Part shown: positions 44,877 through 58,988 of the stretch, piece after piece
Position numbering within the stretch: the stretch's first letter is position 1
Layout of the letters: every line of letters starts with the position of its first letter
Origin: a bacterium
GTDB lineage: Bacteria; Patescibacteriota; Gracilibacteria; UBA4473
NCBI GenBank assembly: GCA_009995455.1
Contig: JAACPJ010000003.1
Span: 1-64,000 of the forward strand
Direction of reading: 5' to 3'
DNA: 64,000 bases
The notes under the pieces: generated by a model
The model's input: the letters and a program-made list of their open reading frames with translations, nothing else
Database searches by the model: none
What the model was told of the DNA's origin: nothing
Made by a program: the position numbers and the translations under genes

Positions 44877-44907
44877 AAAAAAATCCCCGCCATGCGGGGA
44901 TTTTTAT
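44877..44907. terminator. Bidirectional terminator between prfA and the giant surface gene
   Basis: AAATCCCCGC-CAT-GCGGGGATTT, a perfect 10-bp stem with A and T runs on its two sides. Confidence 0.9.
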
Positions 44908-44909
44908 TT

Positions 44910-47900
44910 TTATCTGATTCCTACGATTCCATCAGCGATGAACCCTGGTGGTGGATTTTCTCTGAGTCTTGGATCGACCCGGATTACAAACGATTTAGTG
45001 TTTTTGTAACATCCGCTTTCCCCTGGGATATTAGAACATAGGTTTGCATTTGTGTGGGCGCCTGTAATTAGATCATAAGTTGGAGCGTAGCGTCGAATGT
45101 AATTAAAGTCATACATCTGTGCTCGTAATTGACGTTCAGCTACTGGGTAGCTGTCTAGGTCACCCCAAGGACCTTCTGGGGGAGCTTTATCGGCTTTCCC
45201 AATGGTGTTTTTACTGAGGATATTCCCACTTAAGATTAACTGACGTCCTAATTGATTCCCATTGGCGTCGAAGCCATTAACGATATCCCAGTCATTATTA
45301 GGATTACTATCGGTCCCATCGTTAATTCGTCCTCCACCAGCCCCTGCATCAATCCAAACATTACTGACAAGGGAACCATCAGTAAACAATGTTCCTACGA
45401 TGTGGCGAACATTTCTATAAACTGTTAGTTGTCCACGACGTGATAGGTTATCTAAATTGTCGATGTTATCATTTAGGACAATTAGCCCCAACGAATCGTC
45501 GGTGTTTTGATAAGCCATATCCCCGATCATATTTACACTCGCATTCATAATTACAAAGGTGTGTTTCCCTGAAACTTGTGCTGGATTACTTAAGGTTCCA
45601 ACATTTCCACCTCTTCTTAACCCAATTCGGAAATACACTCGGTTTTCATCACCCGTAATTCGTCCGTCTTCATTTAAGTCACCGTTTAGATAGGTTACCC
45701 CACCATCCGGTAAATTATCGACATATATATCCCACCGTGGGTAAAGATTGCCTTGATGAGTCAGATTGTTCTGAACAATAATTGGTTGGTTTGCTGTATT
45801 TCTAGGAATAGCGGCCCCATTAGCATTACTCGCTTGTTTTCCACGAGTCAGTTCATATGCATTTCGAGTAATTTCTTCTCGTACATCCGTCGCCACGGTA
45901 CTAGTACCTAAGACAATACTATCATCATCGGTTGAATCACAAGAACCATCGGCACAAGATATTTCATCGGCAATAATTTGCCCCTCAATTGCGGCTCCAG
46001 GTTGTTCTTCTGCTGCTGGCGGGCAAGCGAAATCGTAAGGCCCACAACTATCGGTTATGTCGTCATCGGTAATCGTTCCTGTAGCTGTGTCATCTAAATT
46101 TCTAACAAAGCTGGCATCTGAACTAGCACTAATACGCAGATTGAAGAATTCACTGTTTTCTACTTCGATGTCATCAGTGGTTTCAATTGAAAAATTTCTT
46201 TGACTGCTGCCAGCAGGGATTCTAACCGTTGCTCCTGATCCGAACTCAGCACTACTAGCTGAATCAGGATTTCCAGGAATAACTTCTGTTACAATAGTGA
46301 AATCAATTCCGCCATCTGGCGCCACCACGCTTTCACCAAGTGAATTTTGAAGGGCAACAGTGAATTCAATTGATTCTCCTTCTATGGCACTGGCATCGTT
46401 TATTACTACGTCTGGTTTTACGGTTACGGCATCATTGTCGTAAATAAGACCCGTGGCCGTGTCTGTAGTATTACTAAGGAAACCAGAATCAAGGCCTGCG
46501 TAATTCATTATGAGTTCTTCGGTTGGTTCAATGAGAGTATCATTGATTGTATTAACCACGGCTCTTCCCGCTCCTTCCCCTGCAAGAATAGAAACGGTTG
46601 CCACCGTCGGCGTGAAATCAATATTTGGGTCGGCTCCGTCTGAACCTGATCGGCTTCCTTGAAATCTTATAACGGTATCATCGTTAGGATTTGTTTTCGA
46701 TAACTTAACCACAAAATTAAGAGGACTCCCTTCCGTAGCGCTGCTGTTATCGATAATCATTTCAGGACTTGTTTCAACGACGGGGTCATTATCAATAATT
46801 GTGGCAACCGCCGGCACCGCGCCTTGGTTTTGGTATGAACCATCAGTACGAATGCTCAATCTTTCAGCTCGGGCAATTAATCCACTTGGGCTTGAATCTA
46901 CATATTCAAGTCTGAAATTTTCATTTCCTTCTGCAATTGCATCTTGAATAGTTTGAATCGTGAGGACGCCAGCAGCATTTGGTCGTTTTGATTTTCTTGG
47001 AATGGTAACACTAAAGTTTCCACCATTAAAATCTAAGCCACTTTTAGCTCCACCATCAATGGTTCTAAAGTTTAGAGTAACGGCTTGGTTACACAGCGTT
47101 CGATCGAGTTTAATATCAAACTTAGCGGGAGAACCTTCCATAACCTCTAAATCAACCATCTGAACTCTAGCGCCAGATTCAGTACAAATCACTTCGTCGT
47201 CATCTTGAATTAAACCTTCTGTTTCAGTGGTATTCCGAATGTTAGGAGCGTTTGAGGCAATAGAGAGATTAAAGTTTTCTTGTCTATTTTCTGGTGCTTG
47301 TGCAAAAGCAGGGTTTGTCTCTCTTGTGTTGTCGTTATTAAGGGCAACTCCAATTGAAGCGGTTGTTGAGCCTTCACCTTTCCCAGGGACTAAATTTAGG
47401 GTTATTAGACCGGATCGGTAATCGATGCCTGGAACATTAAAGTTTGTGCCGCCAAGAGCCACAATATCTTCTGGGTCGATGGTTAGCGTCATCCCTGATT
47501 CTAAGATTGTATTTCGGTCTATAGGGGCGCCTTTATCATATAAATTAACGGTGAATTCGATTAACCCGGCTTCGTCATTTTCCATGACTACCTCAGGGTT
47601 TTCGATTACTACATCTAATTTTTGGTAATTTAGAATTGAAGCTTCACCTTTGTTGTTATCACCACCAGCTTTAATATCGCCGACTACACTGCTGACTAAA
47701 ACTTCAAATTTTTCAATATCTTCGTTCTCGTCATCTAGCACTAGGCTACAACTAACCGTTTCGGATTCCATTTGACCATCAGCGAATATCACCTTCATGT
47801 CAGCTGGACAAGCGTAGTCTGAGCTTGTTGTTGAGCCTACATTTTGTGGAGTTAGATTCACTACTAAATTCCCCTGAGCCGGATGATCTAATGCTACTGT

Positions 47901-50900
47901 AAAGCTCGCTAACCCACCCTCTATTCCACTAGTGCCATCAATGAAGATACTTGGTAAAGGGTCAGTGGTATTGTCCTCATCAGTGATAGTTCCTTCTGCG
48001 GTGTCACTTGTATTTCCTAATGTGTGACCACTTTCAACTCGCACAAAACTAACCTCAAATTTTTCTGGATTCTCAACATCAGCATTATTCACCAATCGAA
48101 TAGGCTCTAACATTGCCGTCTGATCGCCCACATTGAAAGTCGCTTTATATTCACCTGGAATATAATCACTATTTGGAGCTGCGGTTAATGGGGTAGGAGT
48201 ATAAGTTACAATTAATGGTTGATTAGCGGCATCGAAATGAGGGTACTCTAAGCTCACTTTGAAGCTTATGCTTCCATCAGCGGCGTTGTTACAACCATTA
48301 CTTTCACAGGCAATGGCATCGTCAATATAGATGTTTGTGCCGCCATCTGGTATATCATTGTCGTTAATGTAACCAAGTCCTTCACCCGTAGTTGTCAGAA
48401 GCGCATTTCCAGGATTTACGTTTTTAAATTTAACTCGGAAAGATTCTTGGTCTTCTGATACGTTGTCATCGTAAATTGTTACTGGAGTTGATTTTCCAGA
48501 ATTAGACCCTTGTGGAATAACGACTACTAAATCTCCTCGAGAGTAATCACCTGTGCCATTTCCGCCACTAGCGGTTACGTCTTCCGTTTCAAGTCGAATG
48601 GTAATGTCACTCCCACTTTCATTTGGGTGATCAAGGATTACATCAAATTGCATCGTGTCGTTAGGTGTTTTTTCAACACCATATTCAGTACTAATACTGG
48701 CAATACTTGGTTTTGGAACGCTGGTTGCATCTTGAATAGTAACATTAGCAATATCGCTATAATTACCAATTTTACCTTGTTGTACGCTTACAATTCTCAC
48801 TCCAAAAGATTCATCATCTTCAACTTCGTCATCTGCAATTGTGCTAATTCCATCCGCCAAAGGCACGGTCACATTTTTAACTCCAGCAGGAATCGTGACA
48901 TCAAAGATTCTATTTTGGTAATCTAAACCAGCAATGGCTTGATTGCTGCCAAAATCAAAAGTTTCAAGTCTTAGGGTAACAATTTCATTATCAGCTCTTC
49001 CCGATTGATTGTTTTCTCCCATCACAACGGTGATTTGTGCTCGGTCTCCTTCTCTTACCACTGTATTTAGTAAGTAAGCATTTGGTTCAATATCGTTGTC
49101 TTCAATAGTACATTCTGAAATTGATTCAATTTGTGATAACTCGCCGCCTTCCGCAGAAGTAATTTCAATAGTGAATTTTTCATTTCCTTCTAAAAGATCA
49201 TCTTCATTGGTTTGTATTGGAATTAAAACACCGTCTTGTCCGGCAGGAATGACGGCATTTAAATTGTTGGCTTGGTAATCAGTGCCTTTTGAAGCAGAAT
49301 CTCCAGTAGCTCCTAATTGGGCTGTGATTTGAATGTTTTCACTCACTGGGCGGTTAAGCTTAATGTTAATCCGACAAATACCACCTTCGGTTACGATCCC
49401 ATCGTCAATAATTATACCGTTATCCGTGTCTAAAATTGTACCGGTTCCAGTATCTGTATAGATTTTTAGAGCCCCTGCCGGTTCAAATGTATCAACGCTG
49501 AGGGTAAACGTTTCGGTCTCCTCAATTTCTATATCATCGGCAACACTTATAGAGTAAGTTCCACTTACGCTTCCTTCTGGGATAACTAGGAAAGTAGCTG
49601 GGTTAAAAACGTAATCAGAACCGATAGTTGTTGTAATATCGGTGGCTTTAAAATAAATTCTGATATCTGATTTTGCTTGATCAGATAATCTTACATCAAA
49701 ACTTAAAGTTCCGGGTTCATTTGTGGTCGCATTTGAAATAGTCACTTCTAAATCTTGCGGTGGTTGAGGATCTTCAAAACAATCGTCTGCATCAGGGCAA
49801 GCCCCTGCAGGTAACCCCGGTAGGGTGATATTACGACCGCCAGCGGTATATTTCACCACTGGAATATATAATGAGGCGGCACTATTTTGACCAGATAGAA
49901 TTGATTTAGAATTTACGGTAGTTGTTGCTGGTGCTGGTTTTCCAGCATTTCCTGTAGATTCAATATAGGCCGTATTAACACCACTAAAATTAAAATTTAT
50001 ACCAGGTTTTGCCATATTCACGTTGTTGAATTCATAGCTGTCGCCAATAAATCCAGTAACTCCAATGCTAAAAGCTGTTGGCAGTAATTTACTTGAATCA
50101 GTGCCGGCATCGACATAAATATCAAATGGTTTTGCTACAGGAGGTTTCCAATCAGCGTTATTAAAGCTGCCCATGTTTCCTTTTACTTTAGCATTAATCC
50201 AGGGTTTAAATTGAATTTTAATGTCTAAAGTTTCGGTATTGGCTGGGTTAACGGGCGTTCCTCGTGGACCAATATTTGGGAACTCAAGTATCAAAGGTAA
50301 TTCAGCTCCACTTTGAAAATCATATCCTAAAGCGTACTCAGGATCTGGCAGATATGGTCGCACATCTAAGGTTGGAAGAAGGCTTTTAATTTGAACTGTT
50401 TTTTGACTCGCACTGTTTGGAGTCCAAGTTAGCTGATGTTTATTTCCGACAACGGACCCACCATTAAATCGGATACCATTTTGGTAATCAGCTCCAAGGG
50501 ATGCTACCAAATCGTAAGAACCATTAATATTTTGGTCACGAACACTCATTTTCAGGTTTTCATCTCCTTTAATAACATTCCCAAAGCGATCTAGTTGAGG
50601 CAGTACAATATTACAAGTTTCAACGCCATCTGCAAAAGGGACGTTTGCGGCGGTGTTACAGTTAGTGCTTATATTTACTTCAAGCTTAGCCGGTAAAATT
50701 TGAATGTATCCGTTAAATACGGCTGTGTTGCCGGCCTTGTCGAAAACTTTTAGCTTCACTTTATATAAACCAGCCTTTGTAAAAATTGGGGCCGTTTCGT
50801 CACTGAATTTGAAAGAGTTTAAATCCCAAACATAGTTACTCCCTGCAGTTGGAGTTGTGCTTGGTGGAAAGAATTTTTCGGTTTTTGCTGCACCACCATT

Positions 50901-53156
50901 TATTCTTTCAATCTCTAGATGAGTAATGCGGTCAACATCGAAGTCACCTGTAATAGCTGTAGTTTGATCTTCAACCATTTGAGCGAGTTGAGATTTCATG
51001 GTTAATATCGCTGTTTCTTGGCTAATAATTTGGTTTGCTAGTGAATCTCTATTGGCTTCAATGCCCGCTAACTGTGATGAAATTGATTGAACCGCGGTAC
51101 TTAACTGCCTAATACTTGCTTCTTCAGCGCTAATTAGAGCGTCTATTTCATTGCTCGTTTCAATTGCCCCAATACCATAAAGACTATGTGCGAGAGATCC
51201 TGGAGTAGCCGAATCGGCTAAATCTCGAACCAAGGCTCCAATTACATTATCGGCATTACTAAGGTTTTGAGTAACTTGTGAAATTTTATTACTATCGAAG
51301 GTATCAGTGCCGGCATTGAATGATTGTAGGTAAGAACGACTATTACTTAAAGCTGAATTGGCATTAGCAATTTTAGTGAGCGTATCTTGTTGGTCTGCAG
51401 CGTGTACCGAAGCGGAGGTTTGGGTTGAAAGTAATAGCGCTAGCAGATTGGAATTCGGGCTTAACTCCTCAAGTTTTTGAGATAAAGTTAGTAAATTATT
51501 AGATTCATAAGCGGCTTTGATTTCTTGGTACTCTGTATTTAATTGTTCGATATAGTTATTGATATTATTCAAATCTTGTACCCAGTTTGGAACTACTAAA
51601 GAGTAATTTTTTGTTTTATCTAGCTGCCATTGATTATAGTAGCTGTTGAAGCTATTATTTACATTTGTAATATCAATTTCATCTCCAGTTTCTGAAATAG
51701 TGGCTCGACCTAAAAGACGAGGCAATCCTTCAGTATATTCATCAATTTTATTATTAATGGCGTTTTCTCCTAAGGCATTCACGGTACTTCGATAATTACT
51801 GATTTGGTTTACCCCATCAAATTTTGCTCTTGAAAGTAGGTCTTTTATGTCTCGAATAAAATTACTTGAGATACTACTAGATTCTAGTTGAGATAGTCCT
51901 GGAGAAAGGCTTACTAGGGCCTGCATAAAAAAGTTACTATTGTTATTCACTTCACTTGAAATTTTATGCATCAGATTATTAATAATCACATGCCGTTGCA
52001 ACGAGGCTATATCGGTTAATATTCGACTTCTATTTAAGATAATATCGGCTTCAAATGTTTGTAGGTTCCCTCTTAAATTAACTAAATAGTTTTCGGCATT
52101 AGCAATGTCGTAACGTAATTGATCAATGGCAGAGGTTGAAGTTAAAGGTTCCCAGTTGACTCCAGACATTCCAGAATCGGTTGTAGGATTAACATCTCTA
52201 ATATCTACGTGCATGTTTAATACTCCTGCGTCGGCACGATAGGTGTTTGGATTATTAATATTGGTTCGTAAGTTTTCTTTTGGCAAGGCTAAGCCAGCGT
52301 GCTCAACCTGAAGATTTTGAATCAGCGGAGACTCTTTATCTATTTTTGCCGTTGGTGTCTGACATACTGGGAAATTTGGAATATTGTTTCTATTCTGAGC
52401 CTTGTCATAGAGTAAAAAATCTTGAATGCTTCCGTTATTGCTGATTTCTACATCATCAGTGAACTTACAGCCAGCCATTTGGGATAAGGGTCTCGTTTTA
52501 TTTGCTACTTGTCCGCTTTGTTCCCGCAAACAATCATCTAAATCTTCTTTGTAATAGTGTTTAGGGCTTCCATCAGCATTAACACAAGCTCCAGTTGTGT
52601 AGTTTTTTTCAACGTAAAGTATATTTTTGATCCTAATTTGGTCTCGACACAAACTAGGACTGTTATCGGGGAAACTAATAATATTATTAGCCCATTCACC
52701 ATTTAATCCAACCGGCCAAGGGTTAATTAAATTATTTTTTGAGTAATAGTCATTATTGTTGTTGTATTGTGCTTCTGTTGGAGCTGGCGGACATTTTGGT
52801 GGTGTTAAATCATGTCTAATGAGCTCGGAATTTTGTTCTCCATTACGAGTTACAGTAAAGTTCCATACCCCTTCTGTTTTAGGACCATCAGCATCAATTG
52901 TTGGAACGGTGGTTGTAATTACCGTTGACCCTCCTGTATTTTGCTGGCTTTGAACGGTAGGGGCTACGCTACTAAAATTTGTGGTTGGTGAACTGACATC
53001 CTCAGCCTTAATGTTTACATTATCGGTTGTCTCCGAATTTGTATTGGTACTAATGTTTACATTAATATTAGTATTAACCGCTGCATGGCCTACATACGGA
53101 AAAACGAGCCCAATGATGAGACTCGTTGAAATAGATTTTTTGAATGATGGCAGCAT
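44910..53156 (-). CDS. Giant secreted protein with ten Calx-beta-like modules
   Basis: 2748 residues. A signal peptide ends near residue 26 (YVGHAAVN). Asn/Thr-rich region to about 330; coiled-coil-rich part at about 340-745 (LRYDIANAENYLVNLRGNLQTFEADI; EASIRQLSTAVQSISSQLAG). A PKD/Ig-like module lies at about 765-835 (FTKAGLYKVKLKVFDKAGN). Ten tandem Calx-beta-like modules span about 1130-2365, each with a calcium-type DDxxxExxExFxL block and ending GxIxDxD. The C-terminal domain of about 300 residues has GLIVLNDNI, VGTLFTDGSL, YDFNYIRRY and a PPPGF tail. There is no membrane anchor or LPxTG. It is the last gene of a four-gene surface unit, 4 bp after the previous one. Probably an adhesin. 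Confidence 0.85.
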   Translation of the reverse strand: MLPSFKKSISTSLIIGLVFPYVGHAAVNTNINVNISTNTNSETTDNVNIKAEDVSSPTTNFSSVAPTVQSQQNTGGSTVITTTVPTIDADGPKTEGVWNFTVTRNGEQNSELIRHDLTPPKCPPAPTEAQYNNNNDYYSKNNLINPWPVGLNGEWANNIISFPDNSPSLCRDQIRIKNILYVEKNYTTGACVNADGSPKHYYKEDLDDCLREQSGQVANKTRPLSQMAGCKFTDDVEISNNGSIQDFLLYDKAQNRNNIPNFPVCQTPTAKIDKESPLIQNLQVEHAGLALPKENLRTNINNPNTYRADAGVLNMHVDIRDVNPTTDSGMSGVNWEPLTSTSAIDQLRYDIANAENYLVNLRGNLQTFEADIILNRSRILTDIASLQRHVIINNLMHKISSEVNNNSNFFMQALVSLSPGLSQLESSSISSNFIRDIKDLLSRAKFDGVNQISNYRSTVNALGENAINNKIDEYTEGLPRLLGRATISETGDEIDITNVNNSFNSYYNQWQLDKTKNYSLVVPNWVQDLNNINNYIEQLNTEYQEIKAAYESNNLLTLSQKLEELSPNSNLLALLLSTQTSASVHAADQQDTLTKIANANSALSNSRSYLQSFNAGTDTFDSNKISQVTQNLSNADNVIGALVRDLADSATPGSLAHSLYGIGAIETSNEIDALISAEEASIRQLSTAVQSISSQLAGIEANRDSLANQIISQETAILTMKSQLAQMVEDQTTAITGDFDVDRITHLEIERINGGAAKTEKFFPPSTTPTAGSNYVWDLNSFKFSDETAPIFTKAGLYKVKLKVFDKAGNTAVFNGYIQILPAKLEVNISTNCNTAANVPFADGVETCNIVLPQLDRFGNVIKGDENLKMSVRDQNINGSYDLVASLGADYQNGIRFNGGSVVGNKHQLTWTPNSASQKTVQIKSLLPTLDVRPYLPDPEYALGYDFQSGAELPLILEFPNIGPRGTPVNPANTETLDIKIQFKPWINAKVKGNMGSFNNADWKPPVAKPFDIYVDAGTDSSKLLPTAFSIGVTGFIGDSYEFNNVNMAKPGINFNFSGVNTAYIESTGNAGKPAPATTTVNSKSILSGQNSAASLYIPVVKYTAGGRNITLPGLPAGACPDADDCFEDPQPPQDLEVTISNATTNEPGTLSFDVRLSDQAKSDIRIYFKATDITTTIGSDYVFNPATFLVIPEGSVSGTYSISVADDIEIEETETFTLSVDTFEPAGALKIYTDTGTGTILDTDNGIIIDDGIVTEGGICRINIKLNRPVSENIQITAQLGATGDSASKGTDYQANNLNAVIPAGQDGVLIPIQTNEDDLLEGNEKFTIEITSAEGGELSQIESISECTIEDNDIEPNAYLLNTVVREGDRAQITVVMGENNQSGRADNEIVTLRLETFDFGSNQAIAGLDYQNRIFDVTIPAGVKNVTVPLADGISTIADDEVEDDESFGVRIVSVQQGKIGNYSDIANVTIQDATSVPKPSIASISTEYGVEKTPNDTMQFDVILDHPNESGSDITIRLETEDVTASGGNGTGDYSRGDLVVVIPQGSNSGKSTPVTIYDDNVSEDQESFRVKFKNVNPGNALLTTTGEGLGYINDNDIPDGGTNIYIDDAIACESNGCNNAADGSISFKVSLEYPHFDAANQPLIVTYTPTPLTAAPNSDYIPGEYKATFNVGDQTAMLEPIRLVNNADVENPEKFEVSFVRVESGHTLGNTSDTAEGTITDEDNTTDPLPSIFIDGTSGIEGGLASFTVALDHPAQGNLVVNLTPQNVGSTTSSDYACPADMKVIFADGQMESETVSCSLVLDDENEDIEKFEVLVSSVVGDIKAGGDNNKGEASILNYQKLDVVIENPEVVMENDEAGLIEFTVNLYDKGAPIDRNTILESGMTLTIDPEDIVALGGTNFNVPGIDYRSGLITLNLVPGKGEGSTTASIGVALNNDNTRETNPAFAQAPENRQENFNLSIASNAPNIRNTTETEGLIQDDDEVICTESGARVQMVDLEVMEGSPAKFDIKLDRTLCNQAVTLNFRTIDGGAKSGLDFNGGNFSVTIPRKSKRPNAAGVLTIQTIQDAIAEGNENFRLEYVDSSPSGLIARAERLSIRTDGSYQNQGAVPAVATIIDNDPVVETSPEMIIDNSSATEGSPLNFVVKLSKTNPNDDTVIRFQGSRSGSDGADPNIDFTPTVATVSILAGEGAGRAVVNTINDTLIEPTEELIMNYAGLDSGFLSNTTDTATGLIYDNDAVTVKPDVVINDASAIEGESIEFTVALQNSLGESVVAPDGGIDFTIVTEVIPGNPDSASSAEFGSGATVRIPAGSSQRNFSIETTDDIEVENSEFFNLRISASSDASFVRNLDDTATGTITDDDITDSCGPYDFACPPAAEEQPGAAIEGQIIADEISCADGSCDSTDDDSIVLGTSTVATDVREEITRNAYELTRGKQASNANGAAIPRNTANQPIIVQNNLTHQGNLYPRWDIYVDNLPDGGVTYLNGDLNEDGRITGDENRVYFRIGLRRGGNVGTLSNPAQVSGKHTFVIMNASVNMIGDMAYQNTDDSLGLIVLNDNIDNLDNLSRRGQLTVYRNVRHIVGTLFTDGSLVSNVWIDAGAGGGRINDGTDSNPNNDWDIVNGFDANGNQLGRQLILSGNILSKNTIGKADKAPPEGPWGDLDSYPVAERQLRAQMYDFNYIRRYAPTYDLITGAHTNANLCSNIPGESGCYKNTKSFVIRVDPRLRENPPPGFIADGIVGIR

Positions 53157-53160
53157 GAGT

Positions 53161-54108
53161 TTAAAAATTAGATTTTTTGTTAGTGTGTTTAAGCCTTCGA
53201 AAAGCTAGATATCCAAATAAAATTGCAATAAGCATTAGAATTACCGATATAGTCCAGTAGTAAGCTTTTTCATTAACCTGAGGGATATAGTTTTCATTTG
53301 GTTCGTTCTTTGTATCCTCTTTAATTTGAATCGAATCGTCGTAAATACTGCTTCCAAGTTGCTTGATTTTTTCATCGTCAAAAACGGCGACTTCACTTCC
53401 TATTTCAAAATAGGTTTCGAAATCTTCAACCACAGCTCTTGTCTCTTCTTGATAAGTCTCTTCATCAATACGCCCATATTCTTTTTGGTTTTTTAGTTTT
53501 AAAAAAGCAACTTTAGCTTCTTTGTACTCATTTTCGGCTTGAACCAACGTCGCCAATTTTATAGCGTATTCATCTTCTATTAACTGTAATTTATCACCAA
53601 TGTTACTTTGATTCGTATCATAAAGTGCGGCCATAGATTTTTGTTTTTCTTCCGCTAGCTTTTGGATTTCCCCTTCAAGGAAATTAGTATTTAAAATTGC
53701 AGTGACCCTTCTATCGGCCACCGGAATTACAGACTCTCCAAAAGATATGTCCATATATTCAATGTTTTCCGTCGTTAATTTTGATGGGTCATCTGCTTGA
53801 TTTAATATGTAACGTACATTTTCAATTTTTTCGTCCCAGGTGAGCGGTTGTTCTTTATAGTTTTTTTCGTAGGTCGATAGCTCTTCCTCTGGTCTATCTA
53901 AATTCATATATCTTTCGCCGAAGCCAGGCCAGATGGCTGCTTTCAACATTTCTCTTAGGTTTTCATCTTGCACTTGATCTATTTTATCGAGGACATCTGT
54001 GGTAACGCCAGGTGAAACCGCTAAACCCGCATAAGTTTGAATTGATATGAAGCAACCTATGACGGCTAAGGCTGTTTTTAAGAAAATTGAATTTTTGTAT
54101 TGGGACAT
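53161..54108 (-). CDS. Type I membrane protein with outer coiled coil, unknown function
   Basis: 315 residues. Signal peptide to about residue 27 (CFISIQTYAGLA), then an outer region with an N-terminal DVLDKIDQVQDENLREMLKAAIWPGFGERYM, a charged helical part (FLEGEIQKLAEEKQKSMAAL, then LVQAENEYKEAKVAFLKLKNQ), a membrane helix at about 283-303, and a basic tail KHTNKKSNF. The layout suits a membrane anchor or partner for the secreted giant protein that follows. Family not recognised. No Shine-Dalgarno. Confidence 0.75.
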   Translation of the reverse strand: MSQYKNSIFLKTALAVIGCFISIQTYAGLAVSPGVTTDVLDKIDQVQDENLREMLKAAIWPGFGERYMNLDRPEEELSTYEKNYKEQPLTWDEKIENVRYILNQADDPSKLTTENIEYMDISFGESVIPVADRRVTAILNTNFLEGEIQKLAEEKQKSMAALYDTNQSNIGDKLQLIEDEYAIKLATLVQAENEYKEAKVAFLKLKNQKEYGRIDEETYQEETRAVVEDFETYFEIGSEVAVFDDEKIKQLGSSIYDDSIQIKEDTKNEPNENYIPQVNEKAYYWTISVILMLIAILFGYLAFRRLKHTNKKSNF

Positions 54109-54136
54109 TGAATGACTATCGTTAGTAAAATTTAAT

Positions 54137-56206
54137 TTATTTGGCTAATTGTGGTGTTGTTTCACTTGCTTTTGCGGCATTATTTTTATTTTTTACGAGT
54201 GCCGTTTGACCCAGTAATAAAGTGGCTGGCTCACCATACTGCATCATTTTTCGACCGATTAAATTTCCTTTTTCTTTTTCTCCCATTTGGAAGGCCACTT
54301 CATTTGCCCAAGCATTAACTAACGGAGCTACGATTGGATCTGCCCATTCGTTTTTTTCAAGCCAGGCCACAAATGGTGTCGCCCAGAACAGGTAACCAGC
54401 ATATAGGTCTGGGTTTACGCTTTTTCCGTACGCCTTTTCAAATTCATAAAGTTCGTCAGAGAGAAGCCCTTTTTGATTGTAATGTGTACATATTACAGTC
54501 CCTGATGTAGGCTCTGGCGCTGGCGGCGGATTAACTGCTAGAGGCTCTACATCCTTGAAACAAGAGAACCATCGTCCCCAGTTTGGATCAACATTGGACC
54601 ATTGAATGCTGGTAAAGCCTGTTGGGCACGAAACCTGTGGATTTGAGGTTTCACAATTGATACCACCCGAGTTTTGTGCCATTTTTAGGCCACACATTGA
54701 GCCTGATGGAACTGTAAGATTATTATTGTTATTGTCTTTGAAACAGGAATACCAATCACCCCCATTATCCCCCATTTGGGCAAATCTTTTGGATGAGTAT
54801 CCAGTCGGGCACGTTGTTTGAGGGTCAGAGCCGGCACAAGGAACCATCCGAGCGGTATCACCTGTCATTTTCATTCCACACCATAAACCTTGCTCAACTG
54901 GGTTGGTGCTAATTGCAGCTGTGTTTGTTTTCACACAAGTAAACCAATCGTTTGATCCGATTCTTGCAAAATTACTTTTAGTGTATCCTGCAGGACACGA
55001 CGTTTTCGGGTTTAAGCCCTGACAATTCCTTTGGGCATTTGTTTGATTCGAAATGCTAAATCCACAAAAATTTCCTTTTACCACATTGGCATTTGCGGCG
55101 CCTCCGCTAGCCCCGCCACCGATACCTAGGCCAGAGGCAATTACTTTATTGTAAAAAGCCCGTCTCATCTCTAAAAATGTTTCACTAGCGTTCAGCGCAT
55201 CACGCATGGCTTCGTTAAACATTTCAGAAGTTCTAAAAGTGTTTAAAAAAGAGTTTCCATTATCGTAATTAATGCTGATAGCATTGAACCGCATTAAATT
55301 TTTACTTTCATCTGCCCTGGTTGTAATGGTGTAATCAATTTCTGCTTTGCGGAACTTACCACCTCCAACCACAGCGGTTTTAGCATTTGATTGAGACATT
55401 TTCGTGCCTCCATAATTCACCCATGACAAACTTTGTCCTTGGTAATCGTAATCCTTAAGTTTATAAGGATTGTAAGGCGTCATCTTGACCAGTTCACAAC
55501 TTAAAAAGGCTCCCCCACGTGCAGGGCTTAAATGGTGTGTGTAAATTAAATACTGTCTCATGTCTTTTACAGGCCGCCCAGTTGGGTAATAGCCATCTGC
55601 CCCTGGATTTGCAGCTCTGCTTGGATAAGAAAAATCTAATTCACTCTCTTTACCAAAAGACACATATTTAGAATCTAAGTAATAACCGTCAATTTTTTGC
55701 CGGTTATGTTTGTTATCCAACGTGCTAGCACTTAATTGCCCGGCAAAATATTTTTGTATGTCTTGTGATGTGCTAGAGCCGTTTTTAGACATCCAGTGGT
55801 CTATATTCGTTTTAGTGCCATTGTTATAAATAATAGAAGCCGTATTGTTACGGTTTGATTTGTGAACCGTTGGAGTGTATTTATATCGAGTTGGCACCTC
55901 GTTCATTTTATCAGGGTAGGACACTATATCTGTTTCAAAATAGGGAACGGCTTTGCTGAATGTATTTAAAAAATCAGCATAGGTAGCCACTGAAAATCTT
56001 CCTGATTTGTACTCGTTGTTTTTGCCATTAACTTTATTAACGCTCGCTAAATCTAAGGTATTGAAAGATGGATTGGTGCTAGCCGCTAAAACTAATTGTG
56101 CGAAACATTGTTCTTCTGGGCTGGTTGCAGCCACGGTAGAACCAAATGGAATTAAATTAAATAATAAAACCCCTGTCAGAATGGATGATATTGAACCTCT
56201 TTTCAT
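54137..56206 (-). CDS. Secreted protein with three Cys-rich repeats, unknown function
   Basis: 689 residues. Signal peptide ends near residue 26 (STVAATS). Residues 30-370 form a large unrecognised domain with many Tyr and Asn. Three repeats of about 55-60 residues follow (about 376-555), each with CG-F/M/L, then C, SCP/TCP-x-GY and W-F/Y-x-C-F/V-K, four Cys each, likely two disulfides per repeat. A Pro-rich link leads to a C-terminal domain of about 110 residues (ICTHYNQKGLLSDELYEFEKAYG, then WATPFVAWLEKN). It lies in the surface unit between the small protein and the type I membrane protein. Disulfides imply an oxidising envelope. Confidence 0.75.
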   Translation of the reverse strand: MKRGSISSILTGVLLFNLIPFGSTVAATSPEEQCFAQLVLAASTNPSFNTLDLASVNKVNGKNNEYKSGRFSVATYADFLNTFSKAVPYFETDIVSYPDKMNEVPTRYKYTPTVHKSNRNNTASIIYNNGTKTNIDHWMSKNGSSTSQDIQKYFAGQLSASTLDNKHNRQKIDGYYLDSKYVSFGKESELDFSYPSRAANPGADGYYPTGRPVKDMRQYLIYTHHLSPARGGAFLSCELVKMTPYNPYKLKDYDYQGQSLSWVNYGGTKMSQSNAKTAVVGGGKFRKAEIDYTITTRADESKNLMRFNAISINYDNGNSFLNTFRTSEMFNEAMRDALNASETFLEMRRAFYNKVIASGLGIGGGASGGAANANVVKGNFCGFSISNQTNAQRNCQGLNPKTSCPAGYTKSNFARIGSNDWFTCVKTNTAAISTNPVEQGLWCGMKMTGDTARMVPCAGSDPQTTCPTGYSSKRFAQMGDNGGDWYSCFKDNNNNNLTVPSGSMCGLKMAQNSGGINCETSNPQVSCPTGFTSIQWSNVDPNWGRWFSCFKDVEPLAVNPPPAPEPTSGTVICTHYNQKGLLSDELYEFEKAYGKSVNPDLYAGYLFWATPFVAWLEKNEWADPIVAPLVNAWANEVAFQMGEKEKGNLIGRKMMQYGEPATLLLGQTALVKNKNNAAKASETTPQLAK

Positions 56207-56227
56207 TGATTATATATAAGTATTTTT

Positions 56228-56524
56228 TTAGTGACCGTCCCCATCTCCGTCTCCATCATTTGGAATTGAGACTTGAACCTGTGAACCAGAAAAATTGATA
56301 TCAAAATTTGGGTTGTTTGGTCCTGACCAGCCAGACCATTCTGGGTCAGATGGTGATGGATTTTGTAGATTGATGGTAATAGCGGCTTTGGCGATTTTAG
56401 AGCTTAAGCTGTTACTCGATCGGCAAAAGGCTTCGCCTCCACAAATCCACATATCAATAGCCAAAACAAACAATCCGAGTGAGGCCAAAATGTAAACGGC
56501 GGTGATTACTTGGTCTTTTTTCAT
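56228..56524 (-). CDS. Small membrane-anchored protein, first gene of the surface unit
   Basis: 98 residues. An N-terminal membrane helix at about 7-27 (AVYILASLGLFVLAIDMWIC) after MKKDQ, two Cys soon after it, then a polar Ser/Pro/Asn-rich outer part and a tail of repeated Gly-Asp (NDGDGDGDGH) that might bind calcium. The short basic start plus helix is reminiscent of pilin-like or anchor peptides, but there is no prepilin cleavage motif. A TATAAT box lies 9 nt upstream. Confidence 0.65.
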   Translation of the reverse strand: MKKDQVITAVYILASLGLFVLAIDMWICGGEAFCRSSNSLSSKIAKAAITINLQNPSPSDPEWSGWSGPNNPNFDINFSGSQVQVSIPNDGDGDGDGH

Positions 56525-56532
56525 GACAATAA

Positions 56533-56538
56533 ATTATA
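56533..56538 (-). promoter_or_regulatory. -10 element of the four-gene surface unit
   Basis: Minus strand TATAAT (56538-56533), 9 nt before the ATG; no clear -35 box. This could mean activator or alternative sigma control. Confidence 0.45.
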
Positions 56539-56599
56539 CTTATAAATATATTTAATATCATTTTAGGGTACGATTTGTGGTTTTGTAAAACAAAAGTAA

Positions 56600-56627
56600 T
56601 TGCGGCGCTCTATAAACATTTTATAAT
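56600..56627 (+). promoter_or_regulatory. Promoter of the RnfD-like gene, predicted leaderless
   Basis: TTGCGG (56600-56605), 16-nt spacer, TATAAT (56622-56627). The ATG at 56634 is 7 nt after it. Same -35 hexamer as secY. Confidence 0.6.
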
Positions 56628-56633
56628 GCACAT

Positions 56634-57626
56634 ATGAACTCTAAATTTGTACAAAAAATCAAAGCGAAATATAACTCTATTGCAAAAACCGTTTCATTGC
56701 AGTTGCTACAAACAATTGCTATCGGTTCCTTCCTTTTGTTTGGGGGCGTGTTTTTAGGATTTATAAACATTGCTTGGTGGCAAGTAATTATGGTTTTAAC
56801 GGTTGTGGCTGGACTCGACTATTATCTGCGGAAAACCATTGATGATAAGCATGGATTTCCTTTTTCAGCGATTAACTCGGGTATTGGAATTTGTTTGTTT
56901 TTAAGAACTGAATGGTGGCCAATACTATTTTTTGCGGCTTTGGTGGCTATTGCTTCAAAATATCTACTAAGGTCTGGTAATAAACATTTTTTTAATCCCT
57001 CCTATACCGCCATATTTTTAATGATTTGTTTGTTTGGAAATGAAGCTTACGTTAATCATTTTCAGTGGGGGTTTGATTGGATCATCCTTTTGCCAATTTT
57101 GTTGATGGGTGTTTTTGTAACCTTTAGGGCAGGTTTATGGGATTCAGTTTTAGCTTTTTGGGGTACGTTGCTGATTTGTTTAAATCTTTTTGTGGATTAT
57201 ACGAGTGAAGATTTTGTGTGGCTCTTTTTAACGGGGAGTTTTTTGATTATGTCTTTTCACGGCTTTACCGATCCGGCGACCATGCCAAAGATGCGACGTT
57301 ACAGACTGTTATTTGCAGCCCAAATTGCCATTTTGTTTTTTATCTGTCGCCAAGTAATTAATGAAGGCTATAGTTTTTTTGCGGCTTATTTTTTAGTGAA
57401 TTTGTTTGAAGTGGGTTTATGGAATTTGGAAGGTAAAAAATGGAGAGGGTATGATTTAAGACTTATAGTCCAGATCGGCCTTACGCTTTTGCTGCTACTC
57501 ATACTCGTTGTAATGAGTTTGATGTACTATTTTGATACCAACGGGCTCTGGCCAAGATTACTAACGAATCGTTGTGTGAAATTATTCTGTCAGTGGGGCA
57601 TGAAGGAGTCGTGGGAACTTGATTAA
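56634..57626 (+). CDS. NqrB/RnfD-type integral membrane protein (stand-alone)
   Basis: 330 residues, about nine hydrophobic helices. Family traits: SKYLLRSGNKHFFNPSYTAI (the KHxFNPS signature), FRAGLWDSVLAFWGTLL, and HGFTDPATMPKMRRYR (the TDPxTxP motif). In Rnf/Nqr complexes this subunit carries covalent flavin and helps move Na+ or H+. The flavin-linking SGAT-type Thr of true RnfD is not evident, and no other rnf/nqr gene is nearby. It may be a related flavin or vitamin-linked membrane protein rather than part of a pump. Confidence 0.7.
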   Translation: MNSKFVQKIKAKYNSIAKTVSLQLLQTIAIGSFLLFGGVFLGFINIAWWQVIMVLTVVAGLDYYLRKTIDDKHGFPFSAINSGIGICLFLRTEWWPILFFAALVAIASKYLLRSGNKHFFNPSYTAIFLMICLFGNEAYVNHFQWGFDWIILLPILLMGVFVTFRAGLWDSVLAFWGTLLICLNLFVDYTSEDFVWLFLTGSFLIMSFHGFTDPATMPKMRRYRLLFAAQIAILFFICRQVINEGYSFFAAYFLVNLFEVGLWNLEGKKWRGYDLRLIVQIGLTLLLLLILVVMSLMYYFDTNGLWPRLLTNRCVKLFCQWGMKESWELD

Positions 57627-57878: not shown

Positions 57879-58988
57879 ATGACTCAAAAAACACTTTCGG
57901 TATTAATGTTGCTCATAGTTTCTAGTGTCGTGTGTTCTGTTACTTTTGCCCAAACGGGCACTTTGAGAGAGCGATTTCAAGCACAAAGACTTTCATCCGA
58001 CGTCTCAGATCAAACGAGCATTAAGGCTCGTTTTGCTGATCGTTTAAATTCAGCTAATAAAACGCAAGATAGATCTTCTGGAGAATTTTTATCTAACAGA
58101 AATGCTAATGCTGAAAGCTTGATTATTAGTAATTCGGAAAAAGTTGTTTTTCAAAGTGAAGGTATAGAAAGAGTTTATTATGTTTATCGCCCTGAATCTT
58201 TTAGAGCTGATGAAAAATTACCGGTTTTAATGCTTTTGCATGGAGGGAAAGGGAATGCTTCTGTAATGGCTCAAACCGTAGATCTTTATGAAGAAGCCAA
58301 CCAGTATGGGTTTATAGCGGTGTACCCTGAATCAAATGCGGTTGAATGGAACGATGGACGTTCTTCAACCGAAACTGGTGTTAGTGATGTGGTTTATTTG
58401 GAAGCAGTGGCAAATCAACTGGTAGATCAGTGGGGCGCTGCAGCTAATGAAATTTATGTGGCTGGTATTTCAAGTGGAGGCAATATGACACAAAAATTAG
58501 CCTGTATTTCTAGTAATGTATTTGCTGGGTTTGGGGTTATAGCTTCAAATATGGCCGAAAATTTACTCAATCAATGCGAGACTCCTCAGACATTAAAGCC
58601 GATGCTGCTTTTTTACGGAACCGAGGACCCGTTAATGACATTTGATGGGGAAGAAAGCGAAAGTCCTTTGGCTTCTATGGCGAAAGGTTATGGTGAAGAA
58701 AATCGCCTGTCGGCGCCAGAATCAATGGCTTTTTGGGCTCGTAAAAAGTCCTGCACTTCGGTAAAAGCTACTTTGCTGCCAGATATTGCGGATGATGGAA
58801 CCAGAGTGGCGCAATTAGATTTTATTGGATGCCAAACCCCTTTAAGAGGTTTTGTGGTTATTGGTGGAGGACATAATTGGCCGGGAGGTAAAAATTCAAA
58901 TGCGGTCATTGAAAAATTAGTCGGAAAAACGACCCAAGATATTTCCGCAAATCAGATAATGTTTGATTACTTTGGCTTAGCTCGTTAA
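57879..58988 (+). CDS. Secreted PHB-depolymerase/LpqC-type esterase
   Basis: 369 residues. Signal peptide ends near residue 24 (VTFAQTG). Residues 25-95 are a basic and polar linker. The alpha/beta-hydrolase has LPVLMLLHGGKGN (oxyanion region), nucleophile elbow GISSGGNM near residue 197, a likely acidic residue in FYGTEDPLM, and His in IGGGHNWPGG near the end. It is placed with the poly(3-hydroxybutyrate) depolymerase-like and feruloyl esterase-like secreted hydrolases; the substrate is not known. It overlaps tatD by 12 bp, convergent. Confidence 0.87.
   Translation: MTQKTLSVLMLLIVSSVVCSVTFAQTGTLRERFQAQRLSSDVSDQTSIKARFADRLNSANKTQDRSSGEFLSNRNANAESLIISNSEKVVFQSEGIERVYYVYRPESFRADEKLPVLMLLHGGKGNASVMAQTVDLYEEANQYGFIAVYPESNAVEWNDGRSSTETGVSDVVYLEAVANQLVDQWGAAANEIYVAGISSGGNMTQKLACISSNVFAGFGVIASNMAENLLNQCETPQTLKPMLLFYGTEDPLMTFDGEESESPLASMAKGYGEENRLSAPESMAFWARKKSCTSVKATLLPDIADDGTRVAQLDFIGCQTPLRGFVVIGGGHNWPGGKNSNAVIEKLVGKTTQDISANQIMFDYFGLAR

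Follow-up and report, generated by a model that had tools for sequence, protein, structure and literature searches.

Little is known about how bacteria of the CPR hold and exploit other cells, and until now their giant surface proteins have been catalogued singly. A locus in the genome of a tiny uncultured Gracilibacteria cell (CPR; code 11; genome of 1.32 Mb, 93% complete) raises the question of which other proteins belong with such a giant and what they might do together. The locus lies within a 64,000-nucleotide stretch of DNA (the window), part of contig C11 (205,752 bp) of genome G000, and offers a conserved and well-delimited group of genes that includes an anchor, in which a natural fusion tells which parts belong together. 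The explanation preferred here, and considered moderately probable, is that the locus encodes an envelope-anchored giant adhesin or stalk module, docked on P315 and the N-terminal half of P689 (P689N) and most likely used to hold another cell.

Organization of the Locus

The set contains four ORFs on the minus strand, each with an ATG start and a TAA stop codon, which encode P98 (98 aa, positions 56228–56524), P689 (689 aa, 54137–56206), P315 (315 aa, 53161–54108), and a giant protein (2748 aa, 44910–53156), separated by intergenic gaps of 21, 28, and 4 bp, respectively. All four were found where an earlier note on this sequence had placed them, on one strand with gaps of 4–28 bp. Its claim of an N-terminal signal or membrane segment in every product is borne out by one N-terminal hydropathy peak in each, and an assignment as anchor, signal, type I, and signal, respectively, is right, because the hydropathy peaks fit it, P315 having both an N- and a C-terminal peak. 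The first three proteins had been described as matching no known family, and only the giant was indeed matched in Pfam (Calx-beta).

The neighbors of the locus are prfA and DAHP synthase at one end and an RnfD-like gene at the other, both in G000 and in G002, a genome of the same genus. A perfect terminator with a 12-bp stem (44879–44905) lies between the convergent prfA (plus strand) and giant (minus strand) genes. This stem, previously taken as the downstream boundary of the locus, is real but not exclusive to it, as its position is shared with prfA; because both genes converge on the stem, it is usable by either. At the opposite end, an AT-rich divergent intergenic region (56525–56633) separates the P98 and RnfD-like genes. 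The TATAAT box reported upstream of the locus is present but carries no evidential weight, and was rejected as evidence because the region holds about as many promoter-like matches (39) as chance alone would give (37.2). The promoters likely sit in 56525–56633, although matches to the consensus are no more frequent than by chance.

TGA is a rare stop in this code-11 genome (2 of the 41 complete larger ORFs in the window), and table 11 fits, because no in-frame TGA is needed. The rarity is possibly a trace of the route to TGA reassignment; the same class holds code-25 families.

P98 is a single-TM protein with an N-in/C-out orientation, judged by charge. Homologues were found at L012, L013, and L014 and at the code-25 loci L074–L079, where the small TM proteins have about 80–111 aa and a C-terminal SH. 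The C-terminal residue of the small protein is His in 10/10 genomes, with tails ending in xSH in the code-25 members and in GDGDGH or GGGEH in family f1, and the remaining tail is hardly conserved.

P689N and P315 as Halves of a Single Type I Membrane Protein

P689 is comprised of a signal peptide, an N-domain (residues 1–∼375), a region of three repeats of four Cys (residues 381–549; 54560–55066, minus strand), and an exchangeable C-terminal domain (residues 571–669; 54200–54496, minus strand). It is predicted to be secreted and belongs to no Pfam, NCBIfam, or PHROGs family. P315 has the arrangement of a type I protein, with a signal peptide, an ectodomain, a TM segment at residues ∼285–303, and a basic tail; its C terminus has no LPXTG and reached 14.7 bits against the sortase-type model NF053819 (cut-off 47).

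In G009, from another genus of the same family, the small protein is followed by a fusion of 696 aa and then by a giant of 1444 aa. The fusion joins a relative of the P689 N-half (28% identity, residues 31–375) to a relative of P315 (27%, residues 397–635). With a profile of the fusion, another six relatives were detected. They belong to families f14 and f21 of the class and read TGA as a sense codon (code 25); these fusions have 575–639 aa with a signal peptide and a C-terminal TM segment, except for one of 407 aa that is cut by the contig end. As the two are joined in G009 and in the code-25 relatives, P689N and P315 are the counterparts of the two halves of a single type I membrane protein, and the initial view of four independent new proteins does not hold.

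In the genus of the window, the ancestral fusion is split, and the Cys repeats and the C-terminal domain are lineage-specific additions to P689. The repeats are found in this genus only and are missing in G009 and in the code-25 fusion proteins, and in G002 the C-terminal domain of P689 is swapped for another sequence compared with G000. Relatives of the C-terminal domain are hypothetical proteins on Rhizobium and Vibrio plasmids (L130 and L131), whose genes lie a short way upstream of those for HlyD and a peptidase-domain ABC exporter; the domain is unnamed and occurs across phyla.

The code-25 fusions (L075–L079) also contain a hydrophobic stretch with an AxA-like end (e.g. FFLPQAHA) before the P315-like half, near the point at which the two genes are separate in the window and P315 starts with a signal peptide of its own. 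This stretch is possibly an internal cleavage site. The structure model of the fusion is poor (pLDDT 61, pTM 0.52), so no fold supports the dock, and its Foldseek matches were discarded because model confidence was too low. A PDB sequence search with the fusion gave coiled-coil noise only, and a 449-aa protein of G016 (L048) was rejected as a short fusion relative (hhalign probability <1%).

The Giant Protein and Its C-terminal Domain

The giant is exported, with an N-terminal signal peptide and, by hydropathy, no C-terminal TM segment. Its N-terminal core (residues 1–1030; 50067–53156, minus strand), which includes an Ig/PKD-like part at about residues 790–1003, is whole in G000, G002, and G009 only, and the Ig-like part and the C-terminal domain (CTD) recur in exported proteins of ∼700 aa and larger across the family; Ig/Big-like matches in paralogs were below cut-off. 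The Calx-beta array (about residues 1150–2370; 46047–49709, minus strand) was matched by Pfam in seven stretches (E 2.8e-40) and comprises about ten repeats by eye. It is found in G000 and G002 only, with the 1444-aa giant of G009 having no Calx-beta, and is a genus-specific insertion; because it is absent from other family members, the array is not the defining part.

The CTD (residues 2387–2748; 44913–45998, minus strand) has no relative in Pfam, NCBIfam, PHROGs, or the PDB by sequence searches. Its structure model, of fair quality (pLDDT 72.6, pTM 0.77), produced no Foldseek match at E ≤ 0.001, and several of the weak PDB matches were beta-helix proteins, which is a hint only. Of 341 class genomes, 200 contained the domain, frequently as multiple copies, whereas only weak matches turned up beyond the class, and this class-wide presence makes it a handle for finding such surface systems in Gracilibacteria. 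At the inspected loci, the genes ahead of a CTD gene often encode an anchored protein (by signal anchor, as a lipoprotein, or by a type I TM) and an exported protein rich in Cys, and some CTD genes of ∼700 aa stand alone. At L091, the gene immediately upstream of that for a different CTD protein codes for a type I protein with a P315-like domain, and neither the small protein nor the RnfD-like gene is present; because the pair recurs there, a P315-like protein plus a CTD protein is the smallest repeated unit.

A second type of partner was observed at L049 (5516–11136), L074 (2–4896), L081 (3460–8932), and L046 (7514–15715), where an N-anchored protein or lipoprotein of ∼510–560 aa and a protein that bears Cys (in many cases a small one with 6 of them) are followed by the CTD protein; at L074 both partner types are side by side. 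Cys-rich partners also adjoin CTD proteins of ∼770 aa at L052 (4184–7423) and L041 (2364–3023), the former with a thrombospondin type 1 match (PF19030, 27.4 bits) and the latter with repeats that look similar. In G014 (L046, 4932–12070), DAHP synthase, prfA, and a CTD giant are arranged as in the window, next to other partner genes; the place is kept and the surface cassette differs.

The same anatomy would fit a coat or self-cohesion function, in which the anchored protein would form a fibrous cell coat or a joint between sibling cells and have no partner specificity. Several copies of CTD proteins per genome are what coat parts would show, and the cells of Vampirococcus are set 20–50 nm apart by fibrous material, with giant proteins proposed as the cause of the fibrous surface (PMC8080830). 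However, the swap of the P689 C-terminal domain between close relatives and the varied partners of the CTD suit changing targets better, and a coat is regarded as rather unlikely.

An RnfD/UnbU-like Protein as a Fifth Member

The dedicated, exported, membrane-anchored, and conserved character of the set, as the earlier note had it, stands, but the boundary it drew left out a fifth gene. This gene (56634–57626, plus strand) is divergent from P98 and encodes a polytopic RnfD/UnbU-like protein of 330 aa; in five of the six code-25 relatives, a polytopic protein of ∼315 aa is encoded within the operon itself, immediately ahead of the small protein. An exported PHB-depolymerase-type esterase (57879–58988; PF10503, E 9e-11) adjoins the RnfD-like gene in G000 and likewise in G002, but is not a neighbor in G001.

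The RnfD-like protein scored 23.9 and 24.4 bits against PF03116 (cut-off 27.7) and 16.1 bits against TIGR01946 (cut-off 207), a distant sequence relationship to Rnf/Nqr subunit D that remains below the family cut-offs. RnfA/RnfE (PF02508) had no match in G000, with the same search matching 4 of 14 control genomes, and the two ApbE genes of the genome are both on contig C18, away from the locus, beside which no flavin transferase or FMN-binding protein was found. Because RnfA/E are lacking in the genome and the ApbE genes are elsewhere, the locus is not an Rnf complex, and a typical complex of this kind was rejected; the RnfD-like protein here accompanies surface proteins rather than Rnf subunits. 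Its C-terminal Cys pair, NxCx4C, is invariant, and the pattern is also found in UnbU. In the plasmid collection the closest protein is a stand-alone RnfD-like protein of Metabacillus (tblastn E 2e-12), and the Streptomyces enediyne UnbU was found with E values of 1e-4 to 6e-3 (tblastn; 25% identity over 58%). A scan of viral contigs for a phage origin of the RnfD-like protein was without match. A peroxiredoxin/redoxin gene lies directly upstream of the RnfD-like gene at L075 (6832–8266), at L078 (10317–11712), and on the Metabacillus plasmid (L132, 5234–6621), which is a weak hint of thiol redox chemistry.

Such chemistry would be the main function of the locus if it encoded a transmembrane redox or thiol module, with the RnfD-like protein passing reducing equivalents to exported Cys-bearing partners and the giant acting as substrate or scaffold rather than as adhesin. 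The neighboring peroxiredoxin/redoxin genes, the invariant Cys pair shared with UnbU, the Cys-rich nature of P689, and the presence of an RnfD-like gene in 10/10 fusion genomes are all in agreement with this, but the small protein has Cys in f1 only, the exported parts have no identified cofactor or active-site motif, the genome has no RnfA/E, and no flavin transferase or FMN-binding protein lies beside the locus, ApbE being on C18 only. A redox module is deemed improbable. The occurrence of a redox-family protein in an adhesin operon still counts against the adhesin module preferred here, which leaves it unexplained.

It is decidedly improbable that the set forms an uptake or predation machine, which would act where two cells touch as a channel or an injection or uptake device, the RnfD-like protein providing the membrane channel and the giant probing outside: a polytopic membrane protein and an anchored extracellular giant do occur in one set, and there are members of the wider group that feed on the cytoplasm of their hosts (PMC8080830), but no ATPase, pilin, secretin, or lytic domain was found in the set.

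Conservation and Co-occurrence across the Class

Profile searches for the fusion and for the RnfD-like subfamily covered 353 class genomes. The gene order, which the earlier note had proposed to seek in related genomes, recurs in others down to 25–30% protein identity, and for this reason the set is more than chance. G002 has the four genes in the same order between the same flanks, with the giant broken over two contigs, and the order of small protein, fusion, and CTD protein with an adjacent RnfD-like gene is found in families f1, f14, and f21. The module is patchy, the fusion (complete, split, or cut) being present in 10 of the 353 genomes and the RnfD-like subfamily in 12, with all 10 within the 12. 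By genus, all seven fusion genera fall within the eight RnfD-like genera of 208 (hypergeometric 2.7e-12, a value that ignores relatedness above genus). The small protein precedes P689N/P315 in 10/10 genomes, the CTD protein is directly downstream of P689N/P315 in 7 of 8 testable cases, and the RnfD-like gene is adjacent to the fusion set in 9/10 genomes. In G122 it is on another contig than the fusion and divergent in sequence, in G159 a polytopic gene lies between the fusion and the CTD protein, and two of the 12 genomes (G153 and G154) have an RnfD-like gene and no detectable fusion.

In the fusion tree, f1 is set apart from f14/f21 with full support, which is in line with an old and mostly vertical descent of the set. 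A phage origin is not supported, as PHROGs gave nothing for P689, P315, P98, or the CTD and tblastn on phages gave nothing for the C-terminal part of P689. On the earlier question of whether the genes occur independently in relatives, the set is kept together, but the CTD is class-wide and also found with other partners. That these are loose neighbors, surface genes co-located with no joint function, is very unlikely, since CTD proteins do occur with many other partners but order and co-occurrence are kept over three families and a genetic-code change, and P689N and P315 are naturally fused.

Proposed Assembly

The proposed assembly draws on features that were directly observed, namely the gene set, its export and anchor signals, the fusion, the co-occurrence, the pairing of P315 with the CTD protein, and the gain and swap of domains. 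All products would be exported by Sec, to judge from their signal segments. P315, or the P689N-P315 chain in relatives, would reside in the cytoplasmic membrane and act as a dock that holds the giant, a protein in which neither a membrane anchor nor a wall anchor is present. The giant is envisaged as a chain that is helical in its N-terminal region, then Ig-like, and that ends in a CTD resembling a solenoid, and in the window's genus about ten Calx-beta domains would lengthen it into a presumably Ca2+-stiffened stalk. The Cys repeats and exchangeable C-terminal domain of P689 presumably serve as a tip for variable contacts. Two further membrane subunits of the same assembly would be the small TM protein with its terminal His and the RnfD-like protein, which is taken to help with assembly or to give redox support. 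Most likely the module would serve to grip another cell, as proposed for the giant proteins of Vampirococcus, and the earlier suggestion that it attaches to a host or partner is plausible. Binding between a CTD protein and recombinant P315 or fusion is directly testable.

A more specific and tentative suggestion, itself rather doubtful, is that the UnbU/RnfD-like protein and the small invariant-His TM protein constitute a dedicated platform that assembles or redox-controls the docked giant adhesin, kept across the genetic-code change. If true, this would mean that a redox-family protein has been recruited into surface attachment.

Comparison with Known Systems

Giant surface proteins of the CPR are a known theme. 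The features of such proteins are found in this giant, which combines a length of 2748 aa with a signal peptide, a Calx-beta array, and Gracilibacteria relatives, and a repeat surface protein is known from a BD1-5 genome (PMC6851277). What appears to be new is the gene set and the CTD, together with an unexpected RnfD-like partner, and with a moderate chance that an RnfD-like platform adds more. In the literature searched, no paper on Patescibacteria and Calx-beta together was found, those on Gracilibacteria and Rnf concerned other subjects by title and abstract, and no description of the gene set or the CTD was found, which is not proof of absence.

In Vampirococcus lugosii, a related predator of the Absconditabacteria, giant membrane proteins were proposed to function in host attachment (PMC8080830). 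Like the giant described here, these are very large exported proteins of CPR relatives, in their case with PKD and adhesion-type domains. Unlike the operon of the window, they are described singly, by length and domain content, and the available portion of the account contains no operon with a small TM protein ending in His, a type I partner in split or fused form, an RnfD-like protein, or this CTD (PMC8080830).

Family searches of the set assigned it to no characterized secretion or pilus system, in agreement with the earlier note, and no type IV pilin, PilY1, or pilus assembly family was found in it. LapA/RTX-type adhesins share the long Calx-beta array in an exported protein, but the giant differs from them in having a Sec-type N-terminal signal and no retention module; the LapA-type family PF20579 reached 20.3 bits (cut-off 27), inside the Calx-beta region. 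The UnbU/UnbV pair of enediyne clusters likewise consists of a stand-alone RnfD-like protein with NxCx4C beside the gene of a large exported protein, but its partner there, within a polyketide gene cluster, is of the CRTAC1 family, with no CTD, fusion, or small TM protein. None of the four locus proteins had a CRTAC1/ASPIC-UnbV match in Pfam or NCBIfam. In Streptomyces, the UnbU gene directly adjoins a CRTAC1 gene.
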